Below, piece by piece: positions 4,760 to 43,030 of a DNA stretch of 64,000 nucleotides; the first letter of the stretch is position 1; each line of letters opens with the position of its first letter. The DNA comes from Streptomyces californicus. GTDB lineage: Bacteria > Actinomycetota > Actinomycetes > Streptomycetales > Streptomycetaceae. The position numbers and the translations under genes were made by a program. The notes beneath the pieces are model-generated. The model was not told the DNA's origin. It did no database searches and worked only from the letters and a program-made list of their open reading frames with translations. The stretch covers positions 124,001 through 188,000 of the forward strand of contig NZ_JNZZ01000001.1 of NCBI RefSeq assembly GCF_000717645.1, given 5' to 3'.

Positions 4760-4993
4760 CGCGTCCGCGTGGGGACGCCCGCCCCGGCCGCGCGGGCCCC
4801 GGCACGCCGCCCCTCGCGCACGGGCGCCCCGGAACTCGCGCCGGTCCGCCCGCGCCGCCCGGCCGCCGACCCGGCACGTCGGCGGTCCACCCCGCCCGAA
4901 GGTCCGCCCTCGACGGTCCGTGGCCGTCCCGGCACGCTGCGCCGCCTGGGGGCCGTTTCTGTCGAACCGGAGAATCTCGACATCAACAAATCA

Positions 4994-5035
4994 TTGAACT
5001 TCCACCATGAGGAAACTAGTATCCACTGATCAGAA
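4994..5035 (+). promoter_or_regulatory. aceB promoter with two overlapping 15-bp operator-like boxes
   Basis: TTGAAC (4994-4999) and TAGTAT (5017-5022), 17 bp apart, form a good sigma-70-type promoter, with a start expected near 5029. Box 1, TTCCACCATGAGGAA (5000-5014), fills the spacer. Box 2, ATCCACTGATCAGAA (5021-5035), covers the end of the -10 and the start site. The centres are 21 bp apart, exactly as in the hyi and gcl promoters in this window, where the same arms TTCCG/CGGAA and the same variant arm CAGAA occur. Position between and over the promoter boxes predicts repression. Confidence 0.65.
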
Positions 5036-5152: not shown

Positions 5153-6772
5153 ATGTCCGCACCAGCGCCGTCCACGCTGGCCATCGTCGATGCCGAGCCC
5201 CTGCCCCGGCAGGAAGAGGTCCTGACCGACGCGGCCCTCGCGTTCGTGGCCGAACTGCACCGGCAGTTCACCCCGCGCCGCAATGAGCTGCTCGCCCGTC
5301 GCGGTGAGCGCCGCGCCGAGATCGCCCGCACCTCCACGCTGGACTTCCTGCCCGAGACGGCGGCGGTTCGCGCGGACGACTCCTGGAAGGTCGCGCCCGC
5401 CCCGGCGGCTCTGAGCGACCGCCGGGTGGAGATCACCGGTCCGACCGACCGCAAGATGACCATCAACGCCCTGAACTCGGGCGCGAAGGTCTGGCTCGCC
5501 GACTTCGAGGACGCGTCCGCCCCCACGTGGGAGAACGTCGTCCTCGGCCAGCTCAACCTCACCGACGCCTACGAGCGCCGCATCGACTTCACCGACCCGA
5601 AGTCCGGCAAGTCCTACGCCCTCAAGGCCGCCGACGAGCTGGCCACCGTCGTGATGCGCCCGCGCGGCTGGCACCTGGAGGAGCGCCACCTCCAGCTCGA
5701 CGGCGTCTCCGTGCCCGGCGCGCTGGTCGACTTCGGCCTCTACTTCTTCCACAACGCGCAGCGCCTGATCGATCTCGGCAAGGGCCCGTACTTCTACCTG
5801 CCGAAGACCGAGTCGCACCTGGAGGCCCGCCTCTGGAACGACATCTTCGTCTTCGCCCAGGACTACGTCGGCGTCCCGCAGGGCACGGTCCGCGCGACGG
5901 TCCTGATCGAGACCATCACCGCCGCGTACGAGATGGAGGAGATCCTCTACGAACTGCGCGACCACGCCTCCGGATTGAACGCGGGCCGCTGGGACTACCT
6001 CTTCTCCATCGTCAAGAACTTCCGTGACGGCGGCGCCAAGTTCGTCCTGCCGGACCGCAACGCGGTGACGATGACCGCCCCGTTCATGCGGGCGTACACC
6101 GAACTCCTGGTCCGCACCTGCCACAAGCGCGGTGCGCACGCGATCGGCGGCATGGCGGCCTTCATCCCCTCGCGGCGCGACGCCGAGGTCAACAAGGTGG
6201 CCTTCGAGAAGGTCAAGGCCGATAAGGACCGCGAGGCCGCCGACGGCTTCGACGGCTCCTGGGTCGCCCACCCGGACCTGGTCCCGATCGCGTTGGCCTC
6301 CTTCGACGCGGTGCTCGGCGAGAAGCCCAACCAGAAGGACCGGCTCCGCGAGGACGTCTCGGTGGCGGCGGGCGACCTGATCGCCATCGACACCCTCGAC
6401 GCGAAGCCCACCTACGACGGTCTGCGCAACGCCGTCGCGGTCGGGATCCGCTACATCGAGGCGTGGCTGCGGGGCCTGGGCGCCGTCGCCATCTTCAACC
6501 TGATGGAGGACGCGGCGACCGCCGAGATCTCCCGCTCGCAGATCTGGCAGTGGATCAACGCGGACGTGGTCTTCGAGAACGGCGAGCACGCCACGGCGGA
6601 GCTGGCCCGCAAGGTCGCCGCCGAGGAACTGGCCGCGATCCGCGAGGAGATCGGCGAGGAGACCTTCACCGCCGGCAAGTGGCAGCAGGCCCACGACCTC
6701 CTGCTCCAGGTCTCCCTGGACCAGGACTACGCGGACTTCCTGACCCTGCCCGCGTACGAGCAGCTGCGCTGA
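5153..6772 (+). CDS. aceB: Malate synthase A
   Basis: The 539-residue enzyme condenses glyoxylate with acetyl-CoA to give malate, feeding two-carbon units from acetate or from purine-derived glyoxylate into the citric-acid cycle. Length and motifs match isoform A. Visible motifs include TGPTDRKMTINALNSGA, WLADFEDASAPTW (acidic Mg/glyoxylate-binding stretch), the signature MRPRGWHLEERHL, LPKTESHLEARLWND, IETITAAYEMEEILYELR and the catalytic-region GGMAAFIPSRRD. A GAAGGAG ribosome site sits 8 bases before the ATG. Its promoter carries boxes resembling those before hyi and gcl, so all three glyoxylate-consuming enzymes may answer to one repressor. The gene is monocistronic, with a hairpin after it. 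Confidence 0.97.
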   Translation: MSAPAPSTLAIVDAEPLPRQEEVLTDAALAFVAELHRQFTPRRNELLARRGERRAEIARTSTLDFLPETAAVRADDSWKVAPAPAALSDRRVEITGPTDRKMTINALNSGAKVWLADFEDASAPTWENVVLGQLNLTDAYERRIDFTDPKSGKSYALKAADELATVVMRPRGWHLEERHLQLDGVSVPGALVDFGLYFFHNAQRLIDLGKGPYFYLPKTESHLEARLWNDIFVFAQDYVGVPQGTVRATVLIETITAAYEMEEILYELRDHASGLNAGRWDYLFSIVKNFRDGGAKFVLPDRNAVTMTAPFMRAYTELLVRTCHKRGAHAIGGMAAFIPSRRDAEVNKVAFEKVKADKDREAADGFDGSWVAHPDLVPIALASFDAVLGEKPNQKDRLREDVSVAAGDLIAIDTLDAKPTYDGLRNAVAVGIRYIEAWLRGLGAVAIFNLMEDAATAEISRSQIWQWINADVVFENGEHATAELARKVAAEELAAIREEIGEETFTAGKWQQAHDLLLQVSLDQDYADFLTLPAYEQLR

Positions 6773-29320: not shown

Positions 29321-29360
29321 AGCTAACGCCCTCCGCAACACGACGTCAACAGTTTGTTGA
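29321..29360 (-). promoter_or_regulatory. Promoter of the uricase operon with palindromic operator
   Basis: Read on the minus strand, TTGACG (29344-29349) and TTAGCT (29321-29326) are 17 bp apart. The palindrome TCAACA-AAC-TGTTGA (29346-29360) overlaps the -35. The 20-mer TTTCAACAAACTGTTGACGT found here is repeated exactly at the catalase promoter (33796-33815). Overlap with the -35 predicts repression, or at least competition with polymerase. The regulator gene next door (29428-29934) is the obvious candidate. Confidence 0.75.
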
Positions 29361-29427
29361 AATCTCGCGAACGAAGAAAGCCGCCGTCCCGGCATGCGGA
29401 CGGCGGCTCTCCCGTGTGTTCGGCCAA

Positions 29428-29934
29428 CTACTCACCCTTGGCCGTATGTTCCCTGTTGAGGTAGTTGTACACCGTGAACCTGGAGACGCCCAGGGCGCCC
29501 GCCACGGTCTCCACTCCGTGCCGCACCGAGAAGGCACCGCGTGCCTCCAGCGTCCGGACGACGGACTGCTTGGCCTTGCGGTCCAGGTCGGCGAGCGGCA
29601 TGCCGTGCCGCCGCTCCATCGCCGCGAGGATGTGGTCCAGCGACTCGGAGAGCTGCGGCAGCCGTACGGCTATGACGTCCCGGCCCTCCCAGGCGAGGAC
29701 GACGTCGTCCTGTTCCGCCCGGTCCGGACCCAGCAGTTCGGCGCCCATCGCGTCGACGAGCGGCTTCACGGCGGAGACGAGCGGGTGGTCGAGCCAGGGC
29801 CCCGGCGCCCGGTGGTCGGGCTCGGGCGACGGGCTGTCGCCCTCCGGCGCCGGGCGGTCGGGCCCGGTCGGCGGCCGGCCCGTCGCCGGGGAGGGGGCGC
29901 CGGCGGCAGGAGGGTGGTCGACGGATTCGGTCAC
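29428..29934 (-). CDS. YheO/DauR-type helix-turn-helix regulator
   Basis: The 168-residue protein starts with about 45 residues of Pro/Asp-rich low complexity. A ligand-sensing-like region follows (PLVSAVKPLVDAMGAELLGP...DVVLAWEGRDVIAVRLPQLSESLDHI, about residues 50-110). A C-terminal HTH_22-like domain closes it: SVVRTLEARGAFSVRHGVETVAGALGVSRFTVYNYLNRE. That domain is characteristic of YheO/DauR regulators. It lies directly upstream of the uricase operon, on the same strand, and is therefore the best candidate to bind TCAACA-AAC-TGTTGA. Its GTG overlaps the stop of the thiamine-binding-family gene (GTGA), so the two are co-translated. Confidence 0.85.
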   Translation of the reverse strand: MTESVDHPPAAGAPSPATGRPPTGPDRPAPEGDSPSPEPDHRAPGPWLDHPLVSAVKPLVDAMGAELLGPDRAEQDDVVLAWEGRDVIAVRLPQLSESLDHILAAMERRHGMPLADLDRKAKQSVVRTLEARGAFSVRHGVETVAGALGVSRFTVYNYLNREHTAKGE

Positions 29935-31707: not shown

Positions 31708-31772
31708 TTGACAGCCCCACCGCTCGCCGGGCAATCTTCCGTTAAGCAGAAACGAACTTCCGCAATACGGAA
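31708..31772 (+). promoter_or_regulatory. hyi-glxR promoter with two 15-bp operator boxes
   Basis: TTGACA (31708-31713) and CAATCT (31732-31737) are 18 bp apart. Box 1, TTCCGTTAAGCAGAA (31737-31751), begins on the last base of the -10 and covers the start site. Box 2, TTCCGCAATACGGAA (31758-31772), is a perfect TTCCG-N5-CGGAA palindrome. Centres (31744 and 31765) are 21 bp apart, two helical turns, so two dimers would bind the same face. Position predicts repression. Confidence 0.75.
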
Positions 31773-31789: not shown

Positions 31790-32629
31790 ATGGGATACCC
31801 GGACCAGCGCTTCGATGTGAACCTGTCGATCCTCTTCACGGAACTCCCGCTTCTGGAGCGTCCCGCGGCAGCCGCCGCGGCCGGCTTCACGGCGGTCGAG
31901 CTGTGGTGGCCCTGGATCGAGACCCCCACCCCTCCGCAGGCCGAGCTCGACGCCCTCAAGAAGGCGCTCGACGACGCCGGCACCCACCTGGTGGGGCTGA
32001 ACTTCTACGCCGGACAGCTCCCCGGCCCCGACCGCGGCGCGCTCTCCGTGCCCGGCGAGGAGTCGGACCGCTTCCGCGCCAACATCGAGGTGGCGGCCGA
32101 CTTCGCCGCCTCGGTCGGCTGCACGGCGCTCAACGCGCTGTACGGCAACCGCGTCGAGGGCGCCGACCCGCAGGTCCAGGACGCGCTCGCCCTGGAGAAC
32201 CTGGTCCTGGCCGCCCGCGCGGCGGACCGGGTCGGGGCGATCCTGCTCGTGGAGGCCCTCAACAAGCCCGAGTCGCCGCTCTATCCGCTGGTCAGCGCAC
32301 CGGCCGCGATCGAGGTCGTCGACCGGGTCAACGCGGCGACCGGTCTCGGGAACGCCAAGTTCCTGCTGGACCTCTACCACCTGTCGATGAACGGCGAGGA
32401 TCTGAGCCAGGTGATCAAGGCGTACGCCGCGAAGACCGGCCACGTGCAGATCGCCGACAATCCGGGGCGCGGTGCGCCGGGCACGGGTTCGCTCCCGCTG
32501 GAGCGGCTGCTCGACGAGCTGAAGGACGCCGGGTACACGGGCCGGGTCGGCCTGGAGTACAAGCCGGGCGACCGGCCGAGCGCGGAAGCCTTCGACTGGC
32601 TCCCGGAGACGGCCCGAGCGGACCGCTGA
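31790..32629 (+). CDS. hyi: Hydroxypyruvate isomerase
   Basis: The 279-residue TIM-barrel enzyme interconverts hydroxypyruvate and tartronate semialdehyde in the glycerate route from glyoxylate. FDVNLSILFTELPLLERPAAAAAAGFTAVELWWPW is the conserved first barrel strand. Metal and substrate residues are expected in LLVEALNKPESPLY (Glu), LLDLYHLSMNGEDL (Asp/His) and HVQIADNPGRGAPGTG (His/Asp), and GLEYKPGD carries the last Glu. GGAAGGAG lies 13 bases before the ATG, a long spacing, but the next downstream start would remove barrel strand 1. glxR follows after 96 bp. Confidence 0.93.
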   Translation: MGYPDQRFDVNLSILFTELPLLERPAAAAAAGFTAVELWWPWIETPTPPQAELDALKKALDDAGTHLVGLNFYAGQLPGPDRGALSVPGEESDRFRANIEVAADFAASVGCTALNALYGNRVEGADPQVQDALALENLVLAARAADRVGAILLVEALNKPESPLYPLVSAPAAIEVVDRVNAATGLGNAKFLLDLYHLSMNGEDLSQVIKAYAAKTGHVQIADNPGRGAPGTGSLPLERLLDELKDAGYTGRVGLEYKPGDRPSAEAFDWLPETARADR

Positions 32630-32725: not shown

Positions 32726-33619
32726 ATGAGCAACAACCTCCCCAAGGTCGCGTGGATCGGCCTCGGCATCATGGGCTCCCCCATGTCCGAGAACCTGATC
32801 AAGGCCGGCTACGACGTCACCGGTTACACCCTGGAGCAGGACAAGATCGACCGGCTGGTCGCGGCCGGCGGCACCGGCGCCTCCTCGATCGCGGACGCGG
32901 TCGAGGACGCGGATGTCGTCATCACGATGGTGCCCGCGTCGCCGCAGGTCGAGGCCATCGCGTACGGCCCGGACGGCATCCTGGAGAACGCCCGGCGCGG
33001 CGCGCTGCTGGTGGACATGTCCTCCATCACCCCGCAGACCTCGGTCGACCTCGCCGAGAAGGCGGCCGAGAAGGGCATCAGGGTCCTGGACGCGCCGGTC
33101 TCCGGCGGTGAGGCCGGTGCCATCGAGGCGGTCCTGTCCATCATGGTCGGCGGCGAGCAGGCGGACTTCGACACCGCGAAGCCGCTCCTGGAGGCGCTCG
33201 GCAAGACCATCGTGCTCTGCGGTCCGCACGGCTCCGGCCAGACGGTGAAGGCCGCCAACCAGCTGATCGTCGCGGTCAACATCCAGGCGTGCGCCGAGGC
33301 CGTGGTCTTCCTGGAGAAGTCCGGGGTGGACCTCACCGCCGCGCTCGACGTCCTCAACGGCGGCCTCGCCGGCTCGACCGTGCTGACCCGCAAGAAGGAC
33401 AACTTCCTGAAGCGGGACTTCGCCCCCGGCTTCCGGATCGACCTGCACCACAAGGACATGGGCATCGTCACGGACGCCGCCCGCAACGTCGGCGCGGCCC
33501 TGCCCGTCGGCGGCGTGGTCGCCCAGCTGGTCGCCTCGCTGCGCGCCCAGGGCGACGGCGGCCTCGACCACTCGGCGCTGCTGCGCTCGGTCGAGCGGCT
33601 CTCCGGCTCCCAGGTCTGA
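32726..33619 (+). CDS. glxR: Tartronate semialdehyde (2-hydroxy-3-oxopropionate) reductase
   Basis: The 297-residue beta-hydroxyacid dehydrogenase reduces tartronate semialdehyde, the product of glyoxylate carboligase, to D-glycerate with NAD(P)H. The N-terminal Rossmann motif is [21 protein letters not shown]. The substrate signature is [12 protein letters not shown], the catalytic lysine lies in [10 protein letters not shown], and [12 protein letters not shown] matches the C-terminal helical domain. AGGAAGG stands 10 bases before the ATG. It is cotranscribed with hyi from the promoter carrying the paired boxes. gcl, which makes the substrate, is 7.5 kb away on the other strand under the same kind of operator. 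Confidence 0.95.
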
Positions 33620-33795: not shown

Positions 33796-33837
33796 TTTCA
33801 ACAAACTGTTGACGTTGCTCAGTGGCGAATTTACGCT
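33796..33837 (+). promoter_or_regulatory. Catalase promoter with the uricase-type operator
   Basis: TTGACG (33809-33814) and TACGCT (33832-33837) are 17 bp apart. The palindrome TCAACA-AAC-TGTTGA (33798-33812) covers the -35, in the same register as at the uricase operon. The identity extends over the 20-mer TTTCAACAAACTGTTGACGT and stops after it, which argues for a conserved binding site and not for a recent duplication. Confidence 0.78.
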
Positions 33838-38337: not shown

Positions 38338-39417
38338 TTGAGATCCCTGACGCCCCTCCGCCTTCGCACCCTCGGCGTCCTGCTCGCGGCACTGCTGCCG
38401 GCCTCCCTCGTCGGCACCGCCGCACGGGCGGACGCCCCGGCCGTCCCCGACTTCACCGACGGCTTCGGCCTGACCGAGGCCGCCGACGCGACCGAGGTGC
38501 GCTCCGCCACCGACTTCACCATCACCGTGACCACCCCCCAGGTGTCCGGCCCGCACAAGATCCGCGTCTTCCTTCCCCGTGGATACGCCGCCGAACCGGA
38601 CAAGCGGTGGCCCGTCACGTACTTCCTGCACGGAGGCGGCGGCAACGTGAACGACGCGGCGGCCGTCCCCGCCCTGCGCTCCGACGAGATGATCACCGTC
38701 GTCCCGGACGGCGGCCTCAAGAGCTGGTACGCCGACTGGCTGATGCAGAACACCGCCGTGGGGGCGGCCAACTGGTAGACCTTCCACCTGGAGCAGGTCG
38801 TCCCCTACATCGACGCCAACCTGCGCACCGTCCCCGACCGCGCGCACCGGGCCGTGGTGGGGCTCTCCATGGGCGGCGCCGGCGCACTGCACTACGCCCA
38901 GGCCCGGCCCGACCTGTTCGGCCACACCGCTTCGCTCTCCGGCGGAATCGACTTCGCCATGGCCGAGGTCCGCGCGACGGTCCTGGCCACCGAGCTCAAC
39001 CTCCCGGGCGCCTGGTGCGCGGTGAGCGGTTCCTCCGGCTCCGGTCAGTGCGCCGACTACGGCCCGTACGTCGACAGCGACGCGATCTTCGGTTCGCCGT
39101 ACCCGATTCTGGGCGCCGACCGCCTCTGGAACGCGTACGACCCCGCGGCTCCGGCCAACCTGGCCGAGCTCAAGGACACCGGGGTGACGCTCTACACCGG
39201 TGACCAGGGCGTCATCGACGGCCGCACCGCGGTCGCCGCCGCCACCGTCAAGGCCCGCCTGGACCGCCTCGGCATCCCCGGCCGGCTCGTCGACTACGGC
39301 AACGGGGCGTCGCTCTCCCCCACCTGCGACGGCGGCCACCACTACGGCTGCTGGTCCGCCGCGTTCGCGGACTACGTCCCCCGCCTGGAAGCCGCGTTCG
39401 CGGCGGCGACCGACTGA
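38338..39417 (+). pseudogene. Secreted esterase (Ag85/esterase D-like) interrupted by an in-frame TAG
   Basis: From a TTG start with AGAGGAGA upstream, the frame encodes a signal peptide (LGVLLAALLPASLVGTAARADA) and the first half of an alpha/beta-hydrolase esterase: VFLPRGY..., YFLHGGGGNVND and a W-rich segment ending GAANW. A TAG follows at 38776-38778. The same frame then continues without shift for another 213 codons: TFHLEQVVPYIDANL, the nucleophile elbow VGLSMGGAGAL, and CDGGHHYGCW with the catalytic His. Homologous esterases have WETF here, so GAG (Glu) to TAG is the simplest explanation. Unless the stop is suppressed, the product is a 146-residue fragment without catalytic serine. No frameshift or deletion is visible. 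Confidence 0.85.
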
Positions 39418-41119: not shown

Positions 41120-42904
41120 TCAGGTGGTCGTCAGCGGGCGGATCGCGGTCGGGGCGTGGGACGCCTCCGTGGCCAGGTCCTCGAACTCGTTCACCGACGC
41201 GATGTCGCTCCCGCTCATCGCGATGTTCGTGACCCGCTCCAGGATCGCCTCCACCACCACCGGCACCCGGAACTCCGCCGCCAGCTTCTTGGCCTCCTCG
41301 AAGGCCGGGAGAAGCTGGTCCGGTTCGGTGACCCGGATCGCCTTGCAGCCGAGGCCCTCGACGACCTTGACGTGGTCGACGCCGTAGACGCCCAGCTCCG
41401 GGGAGTTGAGGTTCTCGAACTCCAGGTTGACCTGGAAGTCGATGTCGAAGTTGCGCTGCGCCTGGCGGATGAGGCCGAGGTAGGAGTTGTTGACCAGCAC
41501 GTGGACGTACGGGATGCGGTGCTGCGCGCCGACGGCCAGCTCCTCCAGCATGAACTGGAAGTCGTAGTCGCCGGAGAGGGCCACGACCGTGCCCTCCGGG
41601 TCCGCCGTGGCGACGCCCAGGGCGGCCGGGATCGTCCAGCCGAGCGGGCCCGCCTGGCCGCAGTTGATCCAGTGGCGGGGCTTGTACACGTGCAGCATCT
41701 GCGCGCCCGCGATCTGGGAGAGTCCGATCGTGGTGACGTAACGGGTCTCCGGGCCGAACGCCCGGTTCATCTCCTCGTACACACGCTGCGGCTTGAGCGG
41801 CACGTTGTCGAAATGCGTCCTGCGCTGGAGGGTCGCCCTGCGCTCCTGCGTGGAGGCGGCCCAGGCCGAGCGGTCCTTCAGCCCGCCCGCGGCCTTCAGC
41901 TCGCGCGCCACCTCGACGAAGAGCTCCAGCGCGGCCTTGGCGTCGGAGGCGATGCCGAGGTCCGGGGCGAAGATCTTGCCGAGCTGGGTGGGCTCGATGT
42001 CGACGTGGACGAAGGTGCGGCCCTGGGTGTAGACGTCCAGCTTGCCGGTGTGGCGGTTGGCCCAGCGGTTGCCGATGCCGAGGACGAAGTCGGACTCCAG
42101 GAAGTTCGCGTTGCCGTAGCGGTGCGAGGTTTGGAGACCCACCATGCCGGCGTTCAGCTCGTGGTCGTCGGGGAGGATGCCCCAGCCCATGAGGGTCGGA
42201 ACGACCGGGACGCCGGTCAGCTCGGCGAACTCGACGAGCAGTTCGGAGGCGTCGGCGTTGATGATGCCGCCGCCCGCGACGAGGAGCGGGCGCTCGGAGG
42301 CGTTCAGCATCGCCACGGCCCGCTCGATCTGCTTGCGGGAGGCGGCGGGCTTGTGCACCGGGATGGGCTCGTACAGCTCGGGGTCGAACTCGATCTCGGT
42401 GAGCTGCACGTCGATCGGCAGGTCGATGAGGACCGGGCCGGGGCGGCCGGTGCGCATCAGGTGGAACGCCTGCTGGAAGACGCCGGGCACCTGCGCGGCC
42501 TCCAGGACGGTGGTCGCCGCCTTGGTGACCGGCTTGGCGATCGAGGCGATGTCGACGGCCTGGAAGTCCTCCTTGTGCAGGACGGCGGTCGGCGCCTGGC
42601 CGGTGATGCAGAGGATCGGGACGGAGTCGGCGATGGCGGAGTACAGGCCGGTGATCATGTCGGTGCCGGCCGGGCCGGACGTGCCGATGCAGACGCCGAT
42701 GTTGCCCGCCGCGGCCCGGGTGTACCCCTCGGCCATGTGGGAGGCGCCCTCGACGTGACGGGCCAGGGTGTGGTTGACCCCGCCGGATGCCTTGAGGGCC
42801 GCGTAGAAGGGGTTGATCGCCGCGCCCGGAACGCCGAACGCGTTGCTGACGCCTTCGCGCTTGAGGATCTCAACTGCCGCTCGGGCAGCGGTCATACGAG
42901 GCAT
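41120..42904 (-). CDS. gcl: Glyoxylate carboligase (tartronate-semialdehyde synthase)
   Basis: The 594-residue thiamine-diphosphate enzyme joins two glyoxylates into tartronate semialdehyde plus CO2. It has the three ThDP-enzyme domains. [11 protein letters not shown] carries V51 in place of the usual catalytic Glu, a hallmark of this family. [20 protein letters not shown] and [14 protein letters not shown] lie in the middle domain. The ThDP motif [33 protein letters not shown] is in the C-terminal domain. AGGAGC 6 bases before the ATG fixes the start. It is monocistronic, with its product used by glxR. Its promoter carries the paired TTCCG/CGGAA boxes. Confidence 0.97.
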
Positions 42905-42963: not shown

Positions 42964-43030
42964 TTCCGCATTACGGAAACTCACTTCTGTTATACGGAAG
43001 CAATCTAGGACCTGGGAGATCCGTCGTCAA
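42964..43030 (-). promoter_or_regulatory. gcl promoter with two 15-bp operator boxes
   Basis: On the minus strand TTGACG (43025-43030) and TAGATT (43002-43007) are 17 bp apart. Downstream come TTCCGTATAACAGAA (42985-42999) and TTCCGTAATGCGGAA (42964-42978), centres 21 bp apart, in the same order and arms as at hyi. Both lie in the initially transcribed region, so the bound protein would block initiation or early elongation. Confidence 0.78.

Follow-up and report, generated by a model that had tools for sequence, protein, structure and literature searches.

Paired boxes at glyoxylate and allantoin genes of Streptomyces as probable operators of the IclR-family protein AllR

In a 64,000-nucleotide stretch of the Streptomyces californicus genome (hereafter the window), pairs of palindromic boxes with a fixed spacing precede hyi-glxR, gcl and aceB. 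We think it very probable that these pairs are operators of the Streptomyces AllR protein, at which a pair of dimers would repress hyi-glxR, gcl, aceB and allR itself until released by a metabolite. Genome comparison makes AllR a well-supported candidate for the protein that binds the boxes. The regulon is, on well-supported grounds, an ordinary and largely expected one: its core (AllR, the allantoin genes and hyi) has reportedly been described in S. coelicolor, and tandem sites for IclR proteins are a kind already familiar. What may be gained is a definition of the Streptomyces AllR operator at the level of sequence, comprising four promoters, a fixed two-turn spacing and a predicted fixed relation to the -10 element, which should be useful for predicting control of glyoxylate and allantoin metabolism.

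Each site consists of two 15-bp boxes whose centres are 21 bp apart. An earlier note on this DNA had described such pairs at hyi, gcl and aceB, and all three are present letter for letter. The predicted hyi operator (31737-31772, +) is made up of TTCCGTTAAGCAGAA (box 1, 31737..31751, +) and TTCCGCAATACGGAA (box 2, 31758..31772, +), the GGAA of which runs into the ribosome-binding site GGAAGGAG. The predicted gcl operator (42964-42999, -) comprises TTCCGTATAACAGAA (box 1, 42985..42999, -) and TTCCGTAATGCGGAA (box 2, 42964..42978, -), and the predicted aceB operator (5000-5035, +) comprises TTCCACCATGAGGAA (box 1, 5000..5014, +) and ATCCACTGATCAGAA (box 2, 5021..5035, +). Scored over ten arm positions per box against TTCCG-N5-CGGAA (maximum 20), the hyi and gcl pairs each reach 19/20 and the aceB pair 15/20. 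The likeness of aceB to the other two was thus only partly borne out: it has the same spacing and the same CAGAA arm, but it is weaker and carries that arm on its second box rather than its first. None of the three pair sequences has a second copy in the window, and 100 shuffles gave a mean of 0.00; a looser pair pattern allowing up to 3 mismatches gives six window matches, which are the hyi, gcl and aceB sites on both strands (shuffle mean 0.03).

The whole-genome scan proposed in the earlier note was run, and the many unrelated pairs that it had feared did not occur. With up to 3 mismatches allowed, the strict pair pattern occurs at just three places in the genome (7.78 Mb, 104 contigs): hyi and gcl match exactly, and a GC-rich site on contig 27 has 2 mismatches. 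The reversed pattern finds 0 in the same genome. The aceB pair is not picked up by this pattern, which derives from hyi and gcl. Single exact boxes number 15 in the genome, and only those of hyi and gcl fit the fuller IclR core TTYCRYW3RYGRAA when compared by eye. Together, the three places, the empty reversed control and the restriction of the fuller core to hyi and gcl rule out an abundance of unrelated pairs.

Tandem sites 18-22 nt apart are reported for IclR-family regulators in 94 orthologous groups and are taken as tetramer sites (Suvorova and Gelfand 2021, PMC8222616), and all three window sites, at 21 nt, fall within that rule. The available part of the same survey gives WTTYCRYW3RYGRAAW as the consensus of one IclR subgroup, the core of which hyi box 2 and gcl box 2 match throughout. 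In hyi box 2 the outer W positions deviate, and the aceB boxes fit the core in part only. As far as the available part goes, the AllR entry of the survey is the E. coli one and the Streptomyces AllR pair is not named.

The gene behind the first pair, hyi (hydroxypyruvate isomerase, 31790..32629, +), matches TIGR03234 at 304.6 bits, under the equivalog cutoff of 353.45. The other three score above the cutoffs of their models: glxR (2-hydroxy-3-oxopropionate reductase, 32726..33619, +; TIGR01505), gcl (glyoxylate carboligase, 41120..42904, -; TIGR01504) and aceB (malate synthase A, 5153..6772, +; TIGR01344). A strict promoter scan passes the gcl promoter (43002..43030, -; TTGACG - 17 - TAGATT) as its sole match, those of hyi and aceB lying below threshold, so the latter two were called from conservation. 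The proposed hyi promoter (31708..31737, +) joins TTGACA (31708-31713) across 18 bp to a weak -10, CAATCT (31732-31737), and its TTGACA and CAATC recur among aligned relatives. The proposed aceB promoter (4994..5022, +), based on 67 aligned promoters, has TTGAAC (4994-4999) and TAGTAT (5017-5022) 17 bp apart, which puts the -10 in the linker between the boxes.

These calls suggest two registers. At aceB, box 1 would fill the -35/-10 spacer, the linker would make the -10 and box 2, whose first two bases finish the -10, would lie over the start. A -10 built from the linker would also account for two features of aceB, its conserved linker (ACTANT) and the unusual A with which box 2 opens. The allR pair appears to share this layout, with TGGACG-17-TAGAAT in its common form. 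At hyi, box 1 overlaps the final base of the proposed -10, and at gcl it begins 2 bp past the -10. We infer that one box generally covers the -10/start junction and that its partner sits two turns upstream (aceB, allR) or downstream (hyi, gcl), a placement that would fit a repressor. Arm counts across Streptomyces loci agree in that the start-covering box mostly has an AGAA arm, as hyi box 1 and aceB box 2 do in the window. At hyi box 1 the arm is CAGAA in 28/30 and TAGAA in 2/30; at gcl box 1, CAGAA in 17/29, TAGAA in 11/29 and CAAAA in 1/29; at aceB box 2, CAGAA in 65/66 and TAGAA in 1/66; and at allR box 2, CAGAA in 43/79, TAGAA in 10/79 and CGGAA in 21/79, the last including the clade of the window.

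We picture each box as the site of one AllR dimer. Boxes two helical turns apart would place two dimers (a tetramer) on one face of the DNA, and AllR lying across the -10/start region would obstruct RNA polymerase at hyi-glxR, gcl and aceB as well as at the allR promoter, which lies between allR and allantoinase. Breakdown of allantoin would raise a pathway metabolite (allantoate and/or glyoxylate) that releases AllR, and the glyoxylate-consuming genes would then open together.

The earlier note had placed the regulator gene outside the window, which is correct, and it is close by. An AllR-like IclR-family gene (G000:C1:122443-123246) starts 1.56 kb and ends 0.75 kb ahead of the window start (C1:124001). 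It encodes 267 residues with an N-terminal HTH_IclR domain (PF09339, 65.8 bits) and a C-terminal IclR_C domain (PF01614, 144.8 bits; match at C1:122728-123210), both above cutoff, which identifies it as a member of the IclR family. Allantoinase (TIGR03178) and allantoicase (TIGR02961) genes, also above cutoffs, adjoin it on the other strand. A fourth, weaker pair starts 201 bp ahead of the start codon of the IclR-family gene, between it and allantoinase; scoring 15/20, it is degenerate in this strain. With allantoin genes and a pair of its own beside the AllR-like gene, and with the same spacing near AllR orthologues in three other families (below), the assignment to AllR, which the earlier note gave as an inference, is now well supported.

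Navone et al. 2015 (AEM 81:6649) reportedly found S. coelicolor AllR to be an IclR-family repressor that binds allantoin-gene promoters and controls hyi, to respond to allantoate and less to glyoxylate, and to touch antibiotic production through hyi. The predicted regulator described here is likewise of the IclR family and would likewise repress allantoin genes. In the texts searched, which did not include the 2015 AllR paper, we found no account of the S. coelicolor AllR operator, nor any mention of the register rule, of a -10 placed within the linker at aceB, or of how the aceB operator fares in species lacking AllR. In Streptomyces sp. SirexAA-E, the available part of one study (PMC12772271) terms SACTE_5479 (266 aa) a homologue of the S. 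coelicolor allantoin repressor and reports its recovery in pull-downs with xylan-gene promoters. The malate synthase there is SACTE_5472, 7 locus numbers away (PMC12772271), a distance compatible with the order of AllR and aceB in S. californicus.

Parallels extend to E. coli, where AllR binds the gcl promoter, glyoxylate weakens the DNA binding of both IclR and AllR, and IclR is tetrameric, according to the available parts of two sources (PMC11323563, PMC8222616). These proteins are likewise IclR-family repressors of allantoin or glyoxylate genes, but the E. coli operator given there, KTTGGAAWAWTWTTCCAAC, is unlike the boxes here (PMC8222616). The proteins differ as well. The AllR-like protein stays under the cutoff of each of three NCBIfam models (E. 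coli AllR, IclR and BhcR), the first two being equivalog models, and for the AllR equivalog NF007548 it reaches 119.4 bits against a cutoff of 406.

Among the Streptomyces loci examined, a pair scoring at least 14/20 was found at aceB in 67/67, at allR in 78/80, at hyi in 30/30 and at gcl in 29/29, while 6 of 740 random 300-bp windows score at least 14 and 2 score at least 15. These counts draw on 80 named loci, the best 30 hyi loci and the best 30 gcl loci, with the genome of the window added to each set; they omit 14/81 loci with no aceB in the fetched stretch, L064 (allR, short upstream region) and L205 (gcl). The hyi and gcl sets lean to close relatives, because they are the best-scoring 30 loci from samples of 150 and 41 genomes; among more divergent hyi loci, 6/9 score at least 15. 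In the allR intergenic region, the highly conserved part consists largely of the pair together with a few bases next to it. AllR was found in 147/150 Streptomyces genomes, Hyi in 134/150 and the pair pattern (up to 3 mismatches) in 147/150; since the reversed control matched in 65/150, a lone weak match in a genome can be chance.

Some loci carry variations on the module. An extra box lies 21 bp upstream of hyi box 1 in two genomes (G093:C1:6904667-6904702 and G081:C364:17786-17821), giving three boxes in 21-bp steps. In another (L276, 1794-1829), a 21-bp-spaced pair stands just before a DUF6986/HpcH-HpaI aldolase gene, and pairs of the same kind occur in L275, L277, L278 and L279. The L276 gene, the only one of these tested, has a weak malyl-CoA lyase match, and no aldolase-gene pair is among the pattern matches of the S. 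californicus genome.

The association with AllR extends beyond the genus. We compared 20 AllR loci (62-69% identical, mostly the best-scoring) that represent three further families of the class and were taken from 64 matching non-Streptomyces genomes. Ten pairs scoring at least 16 have the 6-bp linker, whereas any other linker length between 0 and 20 yields 0-2; the reversed pattern gave 0, and ten simulated sets gave one match in total. Every one of the ten is located either upstream of allR or aceB, at a distance of no more than about 270 bp, or, in L300, between hyi and allR, and about half of the 20 loci are without a strong pair. The helix-turn-helix segment SGLPLPTIHR is identical in 12/20 of these AllR proteins and close in the rest. 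Conservation within Streptomyces and co-occurrence across families together support the earlier suggestion that hyi-glxR, gcl and aceB may share one operator bound by a dimer pair.

Genomes that have lost AllR provide a further comparison. Nine of 393 Streptomyces genomes at ≥98% completeness, plus G418, are AllR-less. Six AllR-less genomes have aceB at the cutoff used, five of them with readable upstream regions; G543, G648, G418 and G073 have no aceB match. In the five, the aceB pair is incomplete (gone or damaged), two of them having one intact box. Box 1 matches at 8 of 13 fixed positions in G304, 8 in G459, 7 in G493, 8 in G647 and 11 in G629, where it is changed in the left arm and core and box 2 is lost. 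For comparison we used 28 AllR-positive genomes from the hard end of the sample, a non-random choice in which Hyi was not found in 16, untested in 7 and divergent in 5 (G018, G035, G051, G060, G120). Box 1 reaches at least 10/13 in 27/28 of these against 1/5 of the AllR-less genomes (Fisher p 0.0006, for box 1 only, with kinship ignored and with the threshold chosen after the values were seen). Counting either box, the figures are 27/28 and 3/5 (p 0.053, kinship ignored). By eye, the five AllR-less genomes represent at most about three independent losses, G304 pairing with G459 and G493 with G647. The count omits G605 (weaker AllR match, box at 13/13), G129, whose upstream region is cut by a contig edge, and G050, which is 82% complete and in which AllR was not found and aceB box 1 stands at 11/13. 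AllR is present and aceB box 1 absent in G597, and box 2 is lost in many AllR-positive genomes (for example G026, G014, G043, G121, G037, G113 and G134).

The circumstances of loss differ. In G304, G459 and G629 (L354, L355, L356), allantoicase, allantoinase and aceB still form a gapless cluster in which AllR has cleanly dropped out between allantoinase and aceB; the stretch upstream of aceB in G493 and G647 contains neither allantoicase nor allantoinase nor AllR. Genomes of the first kind, without AllR between allantoinase and aceB, amount to a natural test of the dependence of the boxes on AllR. Full erosion of the aceB operator in G304 and G459, which are sister sequences, was considered and ruled out: box 1 is gone, and box 2 is intact in register at 9/10 arm positions. 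Across the ten AllR-less genomes the pair pattern has matches in 7, compared with 2 for the reversed control. Judged by eye, the only clear case is the hyi pair of G129; one site in G648 is ambiguous, and the others look like chance. G073, in which neither AllR nor aceB was found, has a weak pair at hyi. It and G129, the only AllR-less genomes tested for hyi and gcl, both have hyi; both may reflect assembly gaps, because aceB of G129 is at a contig edge and G073 is without both AllR and aceB.

At aceB the pair is incomplete in every readable AllR-less genome, yet a lone box can outlive AllR, and another binder may act there. More broadly, the boxes might belong to a different regulator, such as another IclR protein, with AllR acting in some other way or sharing them. 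This would accommodate the intact aceB box 2 of G304 and G459, the 8 IclR_C matches in the S. californicus genome and six genomes (G043, G121, G134, G113, G037 and G120) that keep AllR and show no pair at allR. However, it leaves unexplained why the strong pairs of other families keep to the regions ahead of allR and aceB or to the one separating hyi from allR, why all five readable AllR-less genomes have an incomplete aceB pair, and why just one of the ten AllR-less genomes has a clear hyi pair. We consider it unlikely, and prefer AllR as the probable binder.

That the boxes are conserved as promoter or mRNA-leader elements, with no protein operator, is very improbable. They do share bases with promoter elements and, at hyi, with the ribosome-binding site. 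But dyad symmetry and the fixed 21-bp spacing are kept in two registers (spacer and start, or start and leader), and in G304 and G459 the -35/-10 pair TTGAGG-17-TACGAT survives before aceB with box 1 gone from between. As to other regulators of hyi, we take SCO6205-SCO6206 of S. coelicolor to be glxR and hyi. A predicted ArgR box is reported for these two genes in the available part of one study (PMC5839063).

A second palindrome, motif B (TTCAAC-N5-GTTGAA), is unlike the paired boxes. In the window it lies over the aceB -35 as ATCAACAAATCATTGAA (4982..4998, +), before the OHCU decarboxylase / urate oxidase genes (29345..29361) and before a catalase gene (33797..33813), and it was not seen before hyi or gcl. 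It reaches at least 11/12 in 79/79 Streptomyces allantoinase-allR regions (for example L012, 16072-16088) against 0/740 random windows, and at least 10/12 at aceB in 67/67, a score reached by 9/740 random windows. The idea that motif B is the true AllR site and the paired boxes serve something else could draw on this constancy and on the persistence of motif B in the allantoinase-allR region of three genomes with no pair at allR (G121, G037 and G120), but we reject it as scarcely credible: the three genomes that cleanly lack AllR between allantoinase and aceB (G304, G459 and G629) have a perfect motif B (12/12) before allantoinase, none of the 20 outgroup AllR stretches reaches 11/12, the motif matches none of the IclR consensus types, and in the window neither hyi nor gcl is preceded by it.

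The perfect motif B in these three genomes without AllR indicates that this motif is independent of AllR. We lean slightly towards a two-layer control, in which a movable AllR pair module would be joined by an AllR-independent motif B that ties urate oxidation, allantoinase, catalase and malate synthase to another regulator. If true, carbon salvage would be joined with peroxide disposal. That motif B outlives AllR points to a purine-catabolism regulator that could be hunted directly. Beside the urate operon, a 168-aa protein with an HTH_22 domain (29428-29934, -) is a possible motif B regulator. Elsewhere in the window, an esterase-like frame identified by eye (38338-39417, +) is broken by an in-frame TAG at 38776-38778.
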